Part shown: positions 3,972 through 17,734 of the stretch, piece after piece | Position numbering within the stretch: position 1 is the first letter of the stretch | How the letters are laid out: every line of letters begins with the position of its first letter | NCBI RefSeq assembly: GCF_018135625.1 | Contig: NZ_CP073078.1 | Span: 3,628,501 to 3,692,500, forward strand | Reading direction: 5' to 3' | Source: Phenylobacterium montanum | GTDB lineage: Bacteria; Pseudomonadota; Alphaproteobacteria; Caulobacterales; Caulobacteraceae | Length of the DNA: 64,000 nt | The notes under the pieces: model-generated | The model's input: only the letters and a program-made list of their open reading frames with translations | The model's database searches: none | What the model was told of the DNA's origin: nothing | Position numbers and translations under genes: made by a program

Positions 3972-4877
3972 CTACCCCGCCCGAGTCAGGCGCTGGCAGA
4001 GGTCGTCGAGCTGTTCCAGGGTGGCGTAGGCGATACGCAGTTCGCCGGCTCCCCCGCGGTCGATGATCTCGACGTCGAGGCCCAGGATATCGGCCAGGTC
4101 TTCCTCCAGCGCGCGGGTGTCGGCGTCCTTGGGCGCGGCGACGGCGGGTTTGGCCGCATTGCGGGGCCTGGCCTCGCCGCCCTGGGCCTTTCGGGCCAGG
4201 GACTCGGTCTCGCGCACGTTCAGGCCGCGGGCGATCACCTCCCGGGCCAGACCGGCCGGATCCGGCGCGGTGATCAGGGCGCGGGCGTGGCCGCTGGTCA
4301 GGCGGCCGGCGCGCAGTTCGAGCTGCACGGCCTCGGGCAGGCTGAGCAGCCGCAAGGCGTTGGCCACGTGGCTGCGGCTTTTGCCGACGTTCTGCGCCAC
4401 CGCGTCCTGGGTGCGGCCGAACCGCTCCATCAGGGCCTTGTAGCCCATAGCCTCTTCCACCGCGTTCAGGTCGGCGCGCTGGACGTTCTCGATGATGGCG
4501 ATCTCGAGCGCCGCCAGGTCGTCCAACTCGCGCACCACCACCGGCATCTGGTAGAGCCCGGCCTTCTGCGCCGCGCGCCAACGCCGCTCGCCGGCGACGA
4601 TCTGGTATTCGCCGGCCGAATCCGGCATCGGCCGCACCAGGATCGGCTGCAGGACGCCTTTTTCCCGGATCGAGGCGGCCAATTCCTCGATATCGGCCTC
4701 GACAAAGTCGCGCCGCGGCTGGTCGGGGTTGCGGTGCAGAAGCTCGATCGGAACCTCGCGCACGCCGGCCTGCGGCGCCGCGCCTTCACCGCTGACGGCG
4801 GCCTCGGCCTGCTCGTCCAGAAGGGCCGACAGCCCGCGCCCCAGTCCCCTACGGTATTCCGCCATCATTTTATCCAA
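3972..4877 (-). CDS. parB: Chromosome-partitioning protein ParB
   Basis: CTP-dependent clamp that loads at parS and spreads to form the partition complex near the origin. The 301-residue product has a short N-terminal ParA-contacting tail (RRGLGRGLSALL, about 9-20), the NPDQPRR box (50-56), the CTP-binding GERRWRA motif (96-102), the ENVQRADLNAVEEA box, a helix-turn-helix around 157-181 and a C-terminal dimerisation region. An in-frame ATG one residue before MAEYRR is an equally likely start. It follows parA by 13 bases, and intact parS sites lie at 8.3, 9.7 and 10.9 kb. Confidence 0.98.
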   Translation of the reverse strand: MDKMMAEYRRGLGRGLSALLDEQAEAAVSGEGAAPQAGVREVPIELLHRNPDQPRRDFVEADIEELAASIREKGVLQPILVRPMPDSAGEYQIVAGERRWRAAQKAGLYQMPVVVRELDDLAALEIAIIENVQRADLNAVEEAMGYKALMERFGRTQDAVAQNVGKSRSHVANALRLLSLPEAVQLELRAGRLTSGHARALITAPDPAGLAREVIARGLNVRETESLARKAQGGEARPRNAAKPAVAAPKDADTRALEEDLADILGLDVEIIDRGGAGELRIAYATLEQLDDLCQRLTRAG

Positions 4878-4890
4878 TCAATTCCAAGGC

Positions 4891-5721
4891 TCAGGCGGCC
4901 GTCGCCCGCCGCGCCCGCTCGCGCCCCACCACTTCGCGCGCCAGCTTGAGATAGGCCTGGCTGCCCGAGCAGTTCAGATCATAGACCAGCACCGGCTTGC
5001 CGAACGAGGGCGCCTCGGAGACGCGCACATTGCGGGGGATCATGGTCTCGTAGACCTTGTCGCCGAAATGGCTGCGAACATCCTGGGCCACCTGGTCCGA
5101 CAGGCGGTTGCGCCGGTCGTACATGGTCAGCACCACGCCCTGGATCTCCAGCTTGGGATTCAGGCTGGCGCGCACCAGCTCGACCGTGCGCATCAGCTGG
5201 GTAAGGCCTTCCAGGGCGAAGAACTCACATTGCAGCGGCACCAGCACCGCGTCCGCCGCCGCCATGGCGTTGACGGTCAAAAGGTTCAGCGACGGCGGGC
5301 AGTCGATCAGGATGTAGGTGTAGGGGCTGCCGCCGGGTGTCTGGCGCACGGCGTTGATCGCATCGCGCAGGCGGAACGAGCGGCGCTGGGCCTGGGCCAG
5401 CTCCAGCTCGACGCCGGAAAGGTCCGGGTCCGCCGGCACCAGCCACAGGCCGGGCAGGGCCGAGGGCGCGGCGGCGTCGGCCAAGGGCGCGCCGTTGACG
5501 ATCACGTCGTAAGCGGTGGTCTTGCGCTTGCCGCGGGGCATGCCGAGGCCGGTGGAGGCGTTGCCTTGCGGGTCCATATCGATGATCAGGACCTTCTCGC
5601 CCACCGCGGCCAGCGCTGTGCCGAGGTTGATCGCCGTGGTGGTCTTGCCGACACCGCCCTTCTGGTTCGACACCGAAAGCACGCGTAGGGCCGGGTATGA
5701 CCGGGGTTCGGAATCAGGCAC
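4891..5721 (-). CDS. parA: Chromosome-partitioning ATPase ParA
   Basis: DNA-binding ATPase that pulls ParB-parS complexes toward the new pole. The 276-residue sequence contains the deviant Walker A motif KGGVGKTT at residues 21-28, DMDPQGNAS (Walker A prime) and LIDCPPSL (Walker B). The start overlaps the 3' end of rsmG by 8 bases, and parB follows 13 bases downstream, giving the conserved rsmG-parA-parB operon on the minus strand. Origin-proximal position agrees with the Cori-like region at 16.4 kb. Confidence 0.98.
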   Translation of the reverse strand: MPDSEPRSYPALRVLSVSNQKGGVGKTTTAINLGTALAAVGEKVLIIDMDPQGNASTGLGMPRGKRKTTAYDVIVNGAPLADAAAPSALPGLWLVPADPDLSGVELELAQAQRRSFRLRDAINAVRQTPGGSPYTYILIDCPPSLNLLTVNAMAAADAVLVPLQCEFFALEGLTQLMRTVELVRASLNPKLEIQGVVLTMYDRRNRLSDQVAQDVRSHFGDKVYETMIPRNVRVSEAPSFGKPVLVYDLNCSGSQAYLKLAREVVGRERARRATAA

Positions 5722-8333: not shown

Positions 8334-8349
8334 TGTTTCACGTGAAACA
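8334..8349. promoter_or_regulatory. parS: parS site 1 (ParB-binding palindrome)
   Basis: Exact match to the 16-base palindromic consensus TGTTTCACGTGAAACA bound by chromosomal ParB proteins. It sits in the mnmE-mnmG intergenic region about 8 kb from the CtrA-box region. Together with the sites at 9715 and 10903 it forms the expected origin-proximal ParB nucleation cluster. Confidence 0.95.
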
Positions 8350-8449: not shown

Positions 8450-9804
8450 CACTTACCGATGCAGAACCGGGCAAACACCAGATCCAGCACATCCTCAGCG
8501 TCAATCCGGCCACCGATCCTGGCCAGACAGCGGGCGGCAAGCCGGACATCTTCGGCCGCCAACTCCACCGCTAACCCGCCATCGAGTTCGGCCAGGGCCC
8601 GGCGCAGGTGGGCTTCCGCCGCCTCCAGGTCCCGGCGGTGACGAGCCCGCGTCGCCGCCGGGAACTCAGCGCCGGCCAAGGCCTTCACCACCCGAACGGA
8701 CAATCGTTCCGACATCGCTTGAAAGCCGGCGCCGGTGGATAGGGACAGGGCATGCGTCTCCATCCCATGCTCTTCCGCCCAGGCTCGGGCCGTCGCACCG
8801 CTTGAGCCCTGCGGCAGATCGGCTTTGTTGAGCACCAGCAGGTCGCCCGGCTTGGCCCACTCCACCACCGCCCACCAGGCCTCATCCGCCGCCGCGCTGT
8901 CCACCACCAGCAGTCTGAGATCGGCCCCGACCGCACGATCGGCGGCGCGCCGTACGCCCTCGGCTTCGATCGGATCTTCCGAATGGCGCAGGCCCGCCGT
9001 GTCGGCGACGGTGACCCGGTAGCCCGCCAGGTTCAGCACCACCTCGATCACGTCTCTTGTGGTGCCGGGCGTGGCGGTGACGATCGCCCGATCCGAGCCG
9101 GCGAGGGCGTTCAGCAGGCTGGACTTGCCGGCGTTGGGCGCGCCGATCAGGGCGATACGAAAACCTTCGCGCACGCGCTGACCCCGGCTGGAGTCGGCCA
9201 GAGCGTCCGCGAGTTGCTCGGCGACCCGGGCGATCGGCGCTCGCGCCTGCTCGGCCACCGCCTCGGGCACCTCCTCATCGGGAAAATCCACGGCCGCCTC
9301 GAGGCTGGCCAGGGCGTCGATCAGGCCCTCGCGCCAGGCCGTGTGCCGCGCCGACAACTCGCCATCCAGCTGGCCCAGGGCCTGGCGCCGCTGGGCCTCG
9401 GTCTCGGCGTCTACCAGGTCGGCGACAGCCTCGGCCTGGGCCAGGTCCAGGCGGCCGTGCTCGAAGGCCCGGCGCGTGAATTCGCCCGGCTCGGCCAAGC
9501 GCAGGCCCATCGCCAGCAAAGTCTCGATGACCGCCTCGGTCACTGCCGCGCCGCCATGAAGATGCAGCTCGGCGCTGTCTTCGCCCGTGAAGCTCGCGGG
9601 GCCGGGGAGCCAGAGCACCAGGGCCTGGTCCAGCACCGCGCCGTCCGAAGGTCGGCGAAGGGCGCGCAAGGACGCCCGCCGCGGGCTCAGTCGCCCCGGG
9701 GCCAGCGCCCACAATGTTTCACGTGAAACAGGCCCCGAGATGCGGATCACCGCGACCGCCGCGCGGCCCGCGGCCGTGGCTGGGGCGAAGATGGTGTCGC
9801 TCAT
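8449..9804 (-). CDS. mnmE: tRNA modification GTPase MnmE
   Basis: Tetrahydrofolate-binding GTPase that acts with MnmG on tRNA U34. The 451-residue product has the N-terminal formyl-binding domain, a G domain with GAPNAGKSS (G1), a TPGTTRD switch region and LNKADL (G4), and the C-terminal FCIGK peptide whose cysteine is conserved. A full parS palindrome is embedded in the 5' coding region (9715-9730), read as PVSRET. The 15-base gap from the DUF6489 gene upstream suggests shared transcription. Confidence 0.97.
9715..9730. promoter_or_regulatory. parS: parS site 2, inside mnmE
   Basis: A second exact 16-of-16 copy of TGTTTCACGTGAAACA, located about 25-30 codons into mnmE. Intragenic parS sites are known near alphaproteobacterial and other origins, and here the palindrome constrains the codons for VSRET. 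Confidence 0.95.
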
Positions 9805-10902: not shown

Positions 10903-10918
10903 CGTTTCACGTGAAACA
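10903..10918. promoter_or_regulatory. parS: parS site 3
   Basis: Matches the parS consensus at 15 of 16 positions (CGTTTCACGTGAAACA; only the first base differs). It lies in the 81-base gap between the dienelactone hydrolase and quinone oxidoreductase genes, about 5.5 kb from the origin region. Confidence 0.9.
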
Positions 10919-14251: not shown

Positions 14252-15309
14252 CGCACGATCTCCACGACTCGGCCAGGGCACTGGCCATAACAGGCTTCGC
14301 ACTGGTGCGGGGCGCCGGGGCTGACGCCGACCGGCTGGTTCAAGCAGCCGACCACCAGATCGGCCAGGCCGCCGATGAAAGCCTCGTGCAGCCCAAGGGC
14401 CGGGACGCGAACATAAGGCCTGCAGCCCTCCTGCTCCGCCAGAACGGCATAGTCGTGATCCAGCTCGACCAGGGTCTCAATATGCTCCGAAACGAAGGCG
14501 ATCGGGGTGACGATCACGCCCAGGCCTTCCCTGGCCGCCTGACCGATCGCCTCGGCGGTGGAGGGGCCGATCCACTTCAGCGGCCCGACCCGGCTCTGGT
14601 AGCAGACCTGCCAGTCCCACTCGCCGCCCAAGCACTGAACCACCGCTGCGGCGGTCGCCTCGACCTGGGACTGGTAGGGGTCGCCCGCCTCGATCACCTT
14701 TTCCGGCAGGCCGTGGGCGGAGAACAGCAACCGCAACTTTTCCGGACGCCCGGCGGCTTCGAAGGCGCCCAGGATCCGCTGGGCGTGAGCCTCGACAAGG
14801 CCCTTCTGGGTCGGATAGCAGCAGATCGCCCGCACCCGGCCCGATCCGCGATAGGCCGCCCTCCAAGCCTTCAGCGACGAGGCCGTAGTGGTGGTGGAAT
14901 ACTGCGGGTACAGCGGCAGCAGCACCACCTCGTCCGGTTCGAACTCCGCAACCTCGCGGGCGGCGGCGGCGGTGAAAGGGCGCCAGTAGCGCATGGCGAT
15001 GAAGGTCTTGACCCTACAGCTCGGAGCCTGGGTGGCGAGCAGGGCCTGCAGGGCGCCGGCCTGGGCCTCGGTCTCAGGCAAGAGGGGCGAGGCCCCGCCC
15101 ATCCGCGCATAGTTGGCCTTGGCCGAGGCCTGGCGCAGCCAGGAGATCATCAGGGCCAGAGGATAGCGCACCAGGGCCGGGACCTGGATGATCGCGGGAT
15201 CGGCGAACAGGTTGAACAGGAACGGGCGCACCGCCGAGGGCCGGTCGGGTCCGCCCAGGTTGAACAGGACCACCGCCACCCGCCGCGCCGGCCCGGCGTC
15301 CCGCGCCAT
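14248..15309 (-). CDS. hemH: Ferrochelatase, probable [2Fe-2S] type
   Basis: Inserts ferrous iron into protoporphyrin IX at the inner membrane. The 353-residue product has NLGGPD near the start, LLPLYPQYS, the catalytic-region FSAHGLP, and FVSEHIETLVELD. The C terminus is CEACYGQCPG, a cysteine cluster of the type that binds [2Fe-2S] in ferrochelatases such as that of Caulobacter crescentus; a further cysteine lies in the body. Its ATG overlaps the hemE stop by one base (TGATG); a start at 15324 is also possible. Confidence 0.95.
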   Translation of the reverse strand: MARDAGPARRVAVVLFNLGGPDRPSAVRPFLFNLFADPAIIQVPALVRYPLALMISWLRQASAKANYARMGGASPLLPETEAQAGALQALLATQAPSCRVKTFIAMRYWRPFTAAAAREVAEFEPDEVVLLPLYPQYSTTTTASSLKAWRAAYRGSGRVRAICCYPTQKGLVEAHAQRILGAFEAAGRPEKLRLLFSAHGLPEKVIEAGDPYQSQVEATAAAVVQCLGGEWDWQVCYQSRVGPLKWIGPSTAEAIGQAAREGLGVIVTPIAFVSEHIETLVELDHDYAVLAEQEGCRPYVRVPALGLHEAFIGGLADLVVGCLNQPVGVSPGAPHQCEACYGQCPGRVVEIVR

Positions 15310-16355
15310 CAGGCTCTCCGCCATCCGGTGACCCTGGCCAGCACCTGCTCCACATGCCGTATCGGCGTATCCGGCAAGATACCGTGGCCCAGATTGAACA
15401 CATAGGGCCCATCGCCCCATTGCTGCAGCAGCTGATCGACACGGCGATCCAAGCCATCGCCCCCAGCGCGCAGAAGCAAGGGATCGAGCGCGCCCTGGAT
15501 CGTCAGCGAGCGCTGCAGGCTCTGGCCCATGGCCGCGCTGGCCTGCACGTCCAGCCCGACGGCGTTCACCCCCGCGCCGGCCGCATAGCCGGTCAGCAGG
15601 GATCCGGCGCCACGGGGAAAGCCGATCACCGGTACGGTGACGCCGGCGGCCCTCAAGCCCTGGACAATACGGGCGTGCGGACGGGTGACGATGCGCTCGA
15701 ACAGGTCTTCGGGGATATTCTCGGCCCAGGATTCGAACAGTTGCAGGGCCTGGGCCCCGGCCTCCACCTGCATGGTCAAGTAGCGAATAGTGGCCTGGAC
15801 CAGCACTTCGATCAGGGCGTCGAGATCGTCCGGCTTTTCGAAGGCGTAGCTTCTGGCCCGGGTCCGATCGCTGCTGCGCCCTTCGATCATGTAGGTCGCC
15901 ACAGTCCAGGGCGCACCGGCGAAACCGATCAGGGCCCGCTCCGGCTCCAGCACCGCCCGCACGCGGGACAAGGTCTCGCCCACGGCTGAAAGCCGGCCCG
16001 CCGCGGCCTCGACTTCGCCCGCCAGGCGTTCGATGGGCGGAAGTTCGCCCAGCCTTGGCCCCTCGCCGGCCTCGAACCACACCTCCTGGCCCAGGGCTTG
16101 GGGCAGGAGCAGGATGTCGGCGAACACGATGGACGCGTCGAACGGGAAGCGGCGCATGGGCTGCAGAGTCGCCTCGGCGGCCATTTCCGGATCGAGGCAG
16201 AAGCTGATGAAGTCCTTGGCCCGGGTCCTCAGCTCGCGATATTCCGGCAGGTAGCGCCCAGCCTGACGCATGAACCACACCGGCGGCCGGTCGGTCACCT
16301 CGCCCGCGAGCGCCCCTAGGAAACGCGATTCAGCCCTGCTCGCCTGCCCGGTCAT
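15309..16355 (-). CDS. hemE: Uroporphyrinogen decarboxylase
   Basis: Decarboxylates uroporphyrinogen III to coproporphyrinogen III in haem synthesis. The 348-residue protein has the N-terminal signature RPPVWFMRQAGRYLPEYR, and FAGAPWTVATYMIEG and GFPRGAG further on. ATG 16355 matches the usual family start; the frame is open to a possible start at 16391. It transcribes away from the origin-like region, and in Caulobacter hemE flanks Cori, with its promoter inside the origin. Confidence 0.97.
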   Translation of the reverse strand: MTGQASRAESRFLGALAGEVTDRPPVWFMRQAGRYLPEYRELRTRAKDFISFCLDPEMAAEATLQPMRRFPFDASIVFADILLLPQALGQEVWFEAGEGPRLGELPPIERLAGEVEAAAGRLSAVGETLSRVRAVLEPERALIGFAGAPWTVATYMIEGRSSDRTRARSYAFEKPDDLDALIEVLVQATIRYLTMQVEAGAQALQLFESWAENIPEDLFERIVTRPHARIVQGLRAAGVTVPVIGFPRGAGSLLTGYAAGAGVNAVGLDVQASAAMGQSLQRSLTIQGALDPLLLRAGGDGLDRRVDQLLQQWGDGPYVFNLGHGILPDTPIRHVEQVLARVTGWRRA

Positions 16356-16414
16356 ACCCGGTCTTAAAGCCCGGACAGCCCTTGGGCTCAAGCCCCGTAC
16401 GGCCCCTTAATCTC

Positions 16415-16429
16415 TTAAAGAAATATTAA
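16415..16429. promoter_or_regulatory. CtrA box 1 in origin
   Basis: Exact TTAA-N7-TTAA (spacer AGAAATA), with an extra TTAA half-site 8 bases to the left at 16407. It is 60-75 bases upstream of the hemE start, where CtrA could repress both origin firing and hemE transcription, as known for Caulobacter Cori. Confidence 0.85.
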
Positions 16430-16584
16430 TGAGAAAGAGGAGGAAGAGGTATGGCCAGGGACAAGCGTGGATAACCGAGTCGCACCGAATCCGATCTGCG
16501 GCCATACCGCGCGCTGGCCGCGGATTTCCACCAGGCCTCCCGGGGCTGTGGAAAACGGGGATGACCGCCAGGCCACCGAATTTC

Positions 16585-16599
16585 TTAATGAAAGGTTAA
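16585..16599. promoter_or_regulatory. CtrA box 2 in origin
   Basis: Exact TTAA-N7-TTAA with spacer TGAAAGG. It lies in the middle of the hemE-ppsR intergenic region, about 110 bases from the DnaA-like box at 16466. Confidence 0.85.
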
Positions 16600-16763
16600 A
16601 TCCTGTCTGGGCGCCGGTCTGGGGAGAGGGGATTGGCGCCCCGGCGGGGGAAATGTGACATCCCCATGACAGTTTGTCGCACCGCGCCTGGGGACGGCGG
16701 CGACCACAATCGGCAAACTGTCCCGAACGTCCTTGGCAAAGCGGCCGCGACCGGCTTTTCTCG

Positions 16764-16778
16764 TTAACAACTCGTTAA
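16764..16778. promoter_or_regulatory. CtrA box 3 in origin
   Basis: Exact TTAA-N7-TTAA with spacer CAACTCG. It is centred about 118 bases upstream of the ppsR start and 30 bases, close to three helical turns, from box 4. Confidence 0.85.
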
Positions 16779-16793
16779 TCCGACCACCGCTCG

Positions 16794-16808
16794 TTAAGCA
16801 TTCATTAA
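16794..16808. promoter_or_regulatory. CtrA box 4 in origin
   Basis: Exact TTAA-N7-TTAA with spacer GCATTCA, followed by CC to give the extended TTAACC end often seen in CtrA sites. The 30-base offset from box 3 puts the two on the same face of the helix. Confidence 0.85.
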
Positions 16809-16888
16809 CCGATGCTCCACAGGGGCTTTCGACCACACATGATCCTGACCGAACCCCTGACCCCAAATCCCTTGCTTCAGAGCGGCCG

Positions 16889-17734
16889 ATGAGCGCCTCG
16901 CGTTTCGCCACCTATTTCCATGTCCATCTCGTCTCCGATTCCACCGGCGAGACCCTGAACGCCCTGGCCCGGGCGGTCTGCGCCCGGTTCGACGATGTTC
17001 TGCCCATCGAACACATCTACGCGCTGGTTCGTTCCGAGCGGCAGCTCGAACGGGTGCTGCTGGAGATCGCCGGCGCGCCGGGGGTGGTGCTGCACACCAT
17101 CGTCGACCGCAACCTGCGCGCCCGGCTGGAAGCGGGCTGCCGCGAGCTGGACATGACCTGCGTGGCGGCGCTGGACCCGCTGGTGGCGGCCCTGGGCCGC
17201 TATCTCGGCGCCTCGCTCTCGACCCGGGTCGGGGTGCAGCACGCCCTGGACAACGACTATTTCAACCGTATGGACGCCTTGAACTACGCTATCGGCCATG
17301 ACGACGGGCAGGGAACCGACGACCTGGAAAGCGCCGACGTCGTGCTGGTGGGCGTCAGCCGCACCTCCAAGACCCCAACTTGCATCTACCTGGCCCACCG
17401 CGGGGTGCGCGCGGCCAATGTGCCCCTGGTGCCGGGGGCCGAGCCGCCGCCGAACCTGACCCGGTTGAAGCGGCCGGTGGTGATCGGGCTGACAGTCTCC
17501 CCAGACCGACTGATCCAGATCCGCCGCAATCGCCTGCTGAACCTCAGGGAGGAGCGCGAAAGCAGCTATATCGAGATCGAGTCGGTGCGCGAGGAGATCG
17601 TCAAGGCGCGACGGATGTTCGAGCGCCAGGGCTGGCCGGTGATCGACGTCACCCGCCGCTCGGTGGAGGAGACCGCCGCCCAGGTGATCAATGTGATCAA
17701 TTCCGGCGGCGGGCAGATCGAGGTCCTGTCTTGA
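16889..17734 (+). CDS. ppsR: PEP synthase / pyruvate phosphate dikinase regulatory protein (DUF299)
   Basis: Bifunctional kinase/phosphorylase that controls PEP synthase or PPDK by reversible phosphorylation of a threonine next to the catalytic histidine. The 281-residue product begins with HLVSDSTGETLNALARAV, a DUF299 hallmark, and carries the P-loop-like GVSRTSKTP. ATG 16889 starts the conserved sequence; the open frame reaches back to 16733 through origin DNA and is not coding there. It is the first rightward gene after the origin and overlaps the maf start (TTGA). Confidence 0.95.
   Translation: MSASRFATYFHVHLVSDSTGETLNALARAVCARFDDVLPIEHIYALVRSERQLERVLLEIAGAPGVVLHTIVDRNLRARLEAGCRELDMTCVAALDPLVAALGRYLGASLSTRVGVQHALDNDYFNRMDALNYAIGHDDGQGTDDLESADVVLVGVSRTSKTPTCIYLAHRGVRAANVPLVPGAEPPPNLTRLKRPVVIGLTVSPDRLIQIRRNRLLNLREERESSYIEIESVREEIVKARRMFERQGWPVIDVTRRSVEETAAQVINVINSGGGQIEVLS

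Follow-up and report, generated by a model that had tools for sequence, protein, structure and literature searches.

A probable Cori-type replication origin with an additional CtrA box in Phenylobacterium montanum, a genome carrying three ctrA genes

The intergenic region between hemE and a COG1806 gene, located in the window analyzed here (the whole 64-kb stretch, C1:3628501-3692500, of a 5.65-Mb genome in two contigs), is very probably the chromosomal replication origin of this member of the Caulobacteraceae and would work like Caulobacter Cori. As an origin it is of an ordinary, known type, Cori with one extra CtrA box; the unexpected part is the presence of three intact ctrA genes in a genome whose relatives nearly all have one. 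A single ctrA is the rule in the family and the gene is essential in the model species. The origin assignment, already proposed in a first-pass annotation of the sequence, is supported by gene context, a neighboring par locus, an AT-rich element, weak DnaA-type boxes and a cluster of CtrA boxes whose half-sites are conserved. Each of these matches Cori, and no other locus scanned came close.

The ORF list and profile matches show that hemE and the COG1806 gene diverge from the origin region (Table 1), and both are boundary genes of the experimentally mapped Cori (PMC1914354). The right-hand neighbor had been correctly noticed as the flanking gene but named ppsR, a label that we corrected to Kinase-PPPase/COG1806 (PF03618); the closest relatives of its product are encoded by MAGs and Caulobacter sp. 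CCUG 60055, followed by Phenylobacterium, all of them Caulobacteraceae. The parB gene and a ParA-type ATPase gene lie 11-12 kb to the left of the origin and three parS sites, whose proximity had been claimed before, at 5-8 kb, so that the complete set is found within 13 kb. The dnaA gene (C1:3230259) is 415 kb from the origin, farther than in relatives having both on one contig; in several of those relatives dnaA is likewise tens to more than 100 kb away.

Table 1. Features of the predicted origin and its surroundings (positions within the 64-kb window; conservation values come from an alignment with eight close relatives and are approximate, the noncoding DNA being divergent).
Feature	Position	Strand	Remarks
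parB	3972-4877	-	TIGR00180 above cut-off
parA-type ATPase	4891-5721	-	matches to the ParA/MinD family, none reaching an equivalog cut-off; placed before parB
parS	8334-8349		TGTTTCACGTGAAACA
parS	9715-9730		TGTTTCACGTGAAACA
parS, one mismatch	10903-10918		CGTTTCACGTGAAACA
hemE, uroporphyrinogen decarboxylase	15309-16355	-	PF01208, E 3.8e-103; ATG at 16355; upstream TTG at 16391 also in frame
Origin region (hemE-COG1806 intergenic)	16356-16888		533 bp; 41% AT vs 32% mean
AT-rich element, probable unwinding element	16406-16446		72% AT, assigned by composition only; overlaps CtrA box a
CtrA box a (predicted)	16415-16429		TTAAAGAAATATTAA, exact; conservation of half-sites 0.80, spacer 0.39
Weak DnaA box, 8 of 9	16466-16474	-	TTATCCACG; conservation 0.76
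Weak DnaA box, 8 of 9	16547-16555	-	TTTTCCACA; conservation 0.65
W-box-like	16556-16564	-	TCATCCCCG; directly adjoins the 16547-16555 box; conservation about 0.70
CtrA box b (predicted)	16585-16599		TTAATGAAAGGTTAA, exact; half-sites 0.69, spacer 0.46; offset unchanged in close relatives
W-box word TCCCCA	16620-16625	-	exact
W-box word TCCCCA	16661-16666	+	exact
W-box word TCCCCA	16689-16694	-	exact; CTGGGGA form
CtrA box c (predicted)	16764-16778		TTAACAACTCGTTAA, exact; half-sites 0.23 vs regional mean 0.42; 30 bp before box d
CtrA box d (predicted)	16794-16808		TTAAGCATTCATTAA, exact; half-sites 0.94, spacer 0.34
Weak DnaA box, 7 of 9	16813-16821	+	TGCTCCACA; starts 5 bp past the end of box d; conservation 0.61
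Kinase-PPPase, COG1806/DUF299	16889-17734	+	PF03618, E 1.5e-90; right-hand boundary gene of published Cori

All four exact TTAA-N7-TTAA sites reported by the first-pass annotation are present and they are the sole ones in the window (0.01 expected); the additional half-site at 16407 was also confirmed, forming a TTAA-N4-TTAA arrangement with the one at 16415, and a further TTAA word is located at 16364. TTAA words number 18 in the window; ten fall inside the origin region, eight of them paired at exactly 11 bp. Across the whole genome TTAA-N7-TTAA occurs 22 times and the reversed pattern, used as control, 20 times, so a genome-wide enrichment of the CtrA box was discarded; as the motif is not over-represented genome-wide, the signal consists in the local cluster.

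For comparison, the hemE-COG1806 intergenic region was cut from 77 relatives, giving 78 regions with that of the window. The 77 relatives contain 94 exact CtrA boxes in 39.5 kb of origin sequence and zero in 737 kb of flanks; each carries 0-3 boxes, versus four here. Boxes a, b and d combine conserved half-sites with unconserved spacers, the pattern expected of binding sites, and by this alignment they appear to be old; box c is, as far as the sequences compared indicate, private to this genome and a lineage-specific gain beside box d.

Regarding DnaA, a single good DnaA-like box (8 of 9) had been announced, a count that proved too low, given that two were found. The guess that the DnaA sites are mostly of a weak type held: exact copies of the box TTATCCACA number just four over the 5.65 Mb, both strands considered, against 18 for the reversed pattern, and none of the four is near the origin. 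The weak DnaA-site class described for Cori includes W-boxes with the consensus TCCCCA (PMC4285127). The word CTGGGGA, which contains the W-box, was detected in 72 of the 78 origins when about 10 would be expected, and CTGTGGA in 55 of 78 (about 3 expected); TTATCCACA and the Caulobacter G-box TGATCCACA are both absent from all 78. The interleaving of CtrA boxes with DnaA-type sites of presumably weak affinity is thereby well supported as a general feature of Caulobacteraceae origins, at the level of sequence.

The most AT-rich 40-mer of the origin spans box a, and only 0.006% of the 40-mers of the window are as AT-rich. No IHF site matching the strict consensus WATCAN4TTR was found in the origin region, and box c (TTAACAACTCGTTAA) is only loosely like the published IHF/CtrA site TAACGCTCTGTT. 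The lack of a strict IHF consensus, of exact DnaA boxes and of G-boxes, like the 415 kb to dnaA, counts against the origin assignment.

Set against published descriptions of C. crescentus Cori, the region shares the hemE/COG1806 boundaries and an AT-rich element next to hemE, along with multiple CtrA boxes, DnaA sites of the weak class, TCCCCA W-boxes among them, and parS within 8 kb (PMC1914354, PMC4468827, PMC4285127). It differs in having four exact CtrA boxes, one of them private, where five CtrA binding sites have been published for Cori; in the absence of a strict-consensus IHF site, whereas in Cori an IHF site overlaps a CtrA box; and in lacking the G-boxes, as do the 77 relatives, its 8-of-9 boxes having other sequences. 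We regard the G-box as characteristic of C. crescentus Cori itself and not as defining for the wider hemE-COG1806 kind. With the origins of Phenylobacterium and other Caulobacteraceae (loci L003-L082) the region has in common the gene pair, the position of box b, the W-boxes and a TCCACAG element, although many of those origins carry TTCGCTAAGA at the position of box d. About 40 origins, most of them from Phenylobacterium, have a conserved TTCGCTAAGA flanked by TATCCCCA and TCCACAG (L011-L080; for instance in L040, at offset 444 of the hemE-COG1806 region); this motif is either a degenerate half-site or a site for another factor. The hemE-linked origins of Rickettsia and Wolbachia, considered here by description, likewise have hemE as a boundary, and most strains carry CtrA boxes (PMC1914354), but they belong to a distant lineage and their boxes vary from none to seven. 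Our results extend the Cori model in that half-sites are conserved without their spacers, W-boxes occur in nearly all the Caulobacteraceae origins examined and one box is lineage-specific.

Strand polarity, suggested earlier as a check on the origin, with a GC-skew minimum elsewhere named as refuting, gave no clean outcome and does not pin the origin to this locus: the broad switch at 3.28-3.96 Mb does contain the locus (3.645 Mb), but the best points are 0.2-0.4 Mb away. The raw GC-skew minimum lies at about 3.36-3.41 Mb and the skewed k-mer minimum at 3.438 Mb, while GC3 corrected for gene strand fits best at 3.28 Mb with a second minimum near 3.96 Mb; the locus fits polarity worse than any of these points. 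The terminus-side switch, near 0.70 Mb, is sharp whereas the origin-side one is broad, and the sign of the polarity alternates across 3.4-4.1 Mb, around the origin. A search for SSU rRNA, intended for operon polarity, returned no match here, but it likewise failed in a number of control genomes, among them Caulobacter, and so carries no information on the origin. According to PMC1914354, skew predicts origins unreliably in this class. When loci were scored by boxes alone, the origin region ranked first by a wide margin within the 2.7 Mb scanned, about half of the genome and including all of 3.08-4.20 Mb; no other cluster of CtrA/DnaA boxes was found in 3.08-4.20 Mb, neither near 3.44 Mb nor at dnaA, and initiation at dnaA or at the minimum of the skewed k-mers was therefore rejected.

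The displaced minima could also mark the locus as a relic, with initiation moved to the vicinity of the polarity switch (about 3.28-3.44 or 3.96 Mb) and the boxes persisting for another reason. Several minima standing 0.2-0.4 Mb off speak for this reading, which we nevertheless regard as improbable, considering that no rival box cluster exists in 3.08-4.20 Mb, that W-box and CtrA sites are conserved at the locus and one box was even gained in this genome, that the arms from the locus to the 0.70-Mb terminus stand at 53:47, and that the sign alternation in 3.4-4.1 Mb is what near-origin inversions would leave. Since polarity alternates over that interval and nothing origin-like was found at the minima checked, a local rearrangement by inversions is the likelier, but unproven, explanation for the displacement; we judge the objection from polarity to be outweighed, not answered.

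The boxes might instead chiefly control transcription rather than replication, the target being hemE, COG1806 or a CcnA-like RNA encoded between boxes b and d. In C. crescentus Cori a CtrA-dependent RNA of 182 nt, CcnA, lies between two CtrA boxes (PMC8959179), and the 209 bp separating boxes b and d would fit such an RNA; however, conserved DnaA-type sites interleave with the CtrA boxes, and no Rfam match above threshold, no structure excess on either strand and no sigma-70-like promoter was detected. A CcnA-like RNA in 16600-16808 was accordingly rejected, lacking Rfam support and folding no better than shuffled sequence on both strands. We hold a chiefly transcriptional function to be very improbable, but transcriptional and replication roles of the boxes can coexist. 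As for a chance cluster in an AT-rich gap, the region is indeed more AT-rich than average, but in 5,000 dinucleotide shuffles of it a single box appeared in 23 and two boxes in none, and across the 78 origins 98 TTAA pairs are spaced at 11 bp with no more than 8 at any other spacing; shuffles and relatives together refute this explanation, to which we assign a negligible probability.

Returning to a functional origin of the Cori type, phosphorylated CtrA has been described as excluding DnaA in Cori (PMC4468827). From the sites, conservation and context observed here we infer a comparable course of binding, exclusion and replication start. DnaA would assemble on several weak sites, the two 8-of-9 boxes and the TCCCCA W-boxes, and would then open the AT-rich element next to hemE; while CtrA activity is high, its phosphorylated form, bound at the four boxes, would shut DnaA out. 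The positions of the boxes would suit this role, box a overlapping the AT-rich element, box b lying about 20 bp past two paired DnaA-type sites, and boxes c and d just before the last DnaA-type box, TGCTCCACA. Box c, at 30 bp from d, should strengthen binding there and may add cooperativity.

On the side of the regulator, three full-length ctrA copies are dispersed over the genome, at C1:2088159, C1:2416977 and C1:1284527 (L238:9160-9861, L239:8978-9679 and L240:8528-9229, respectively). The query, C. crescentus CtrA, gave 100% matches in several Caulobacter genomes. A match at the strict threshold was obtained in 147 of 149 genomes of the family; four others have two copies and only this one has three. 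The other members of the genus that were searched, in fragmented assemblies, have at most one close copy each and one of them has none. The three proteins score 414, 400 and 386 bits, above the 350-bit cut-off of equivalog NF045991, and the alignment shows that the phospho-acceptor aspartate and the C-terminal Ala-Ala are retained in all of them and that their recognition helices are near-identical. The presence of intact ctrA genes agrees with a Cori-type origin.

Copy 1 adjoins a FliI-like ATPase gene, and the sequence upstream of this copy can be aligned with its counterpart in a genus member, while copies 2 and 3 lie in unrelated neighborhoods. Copies 2 and 3 look like old, functional duplicates, given that a CtrA box with a 7-of-8 match lies about 105 bp upstream of both starts, as in copy 1, with matching surrounding sequence, that they cluster together with moderate support, and that their dN/dS of 0.10-0.15 indicates purifying selection. 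A phage origin of ctrA2 was discarded, its closest viral relatives being only up to 68% identical.

It is conceivable, though we think it rather unlikely, that both sides of the origin brake have expanded in this lineage, with three CtrA paralogs of the same DNA specificity, each expressed or activated in conditions of its own, gating a box-enriched origin. Three ctrA genes together with an extra box offer a natural case for asking whether the dosage of a master regulator and the number of origin boxes co-evolve.

Two further pairs of exact CtrA boxes, at L244:4825/4901 and L243:4542/4614, were seen, in one case with fliOP-like and flgBC-like genes on the two sides and in the other with a ruvC-like gene following, these neighbors having been named by eye from translations; both pairs are fitting for the known CtrA regulon. 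Homologs of CtrA were also seen in IMG/VR contigs (L246-L254), 58-68% identical to copy 2, and on small Methylobacterium plasmids (H1-H15), 75-78% identical to copy 3.
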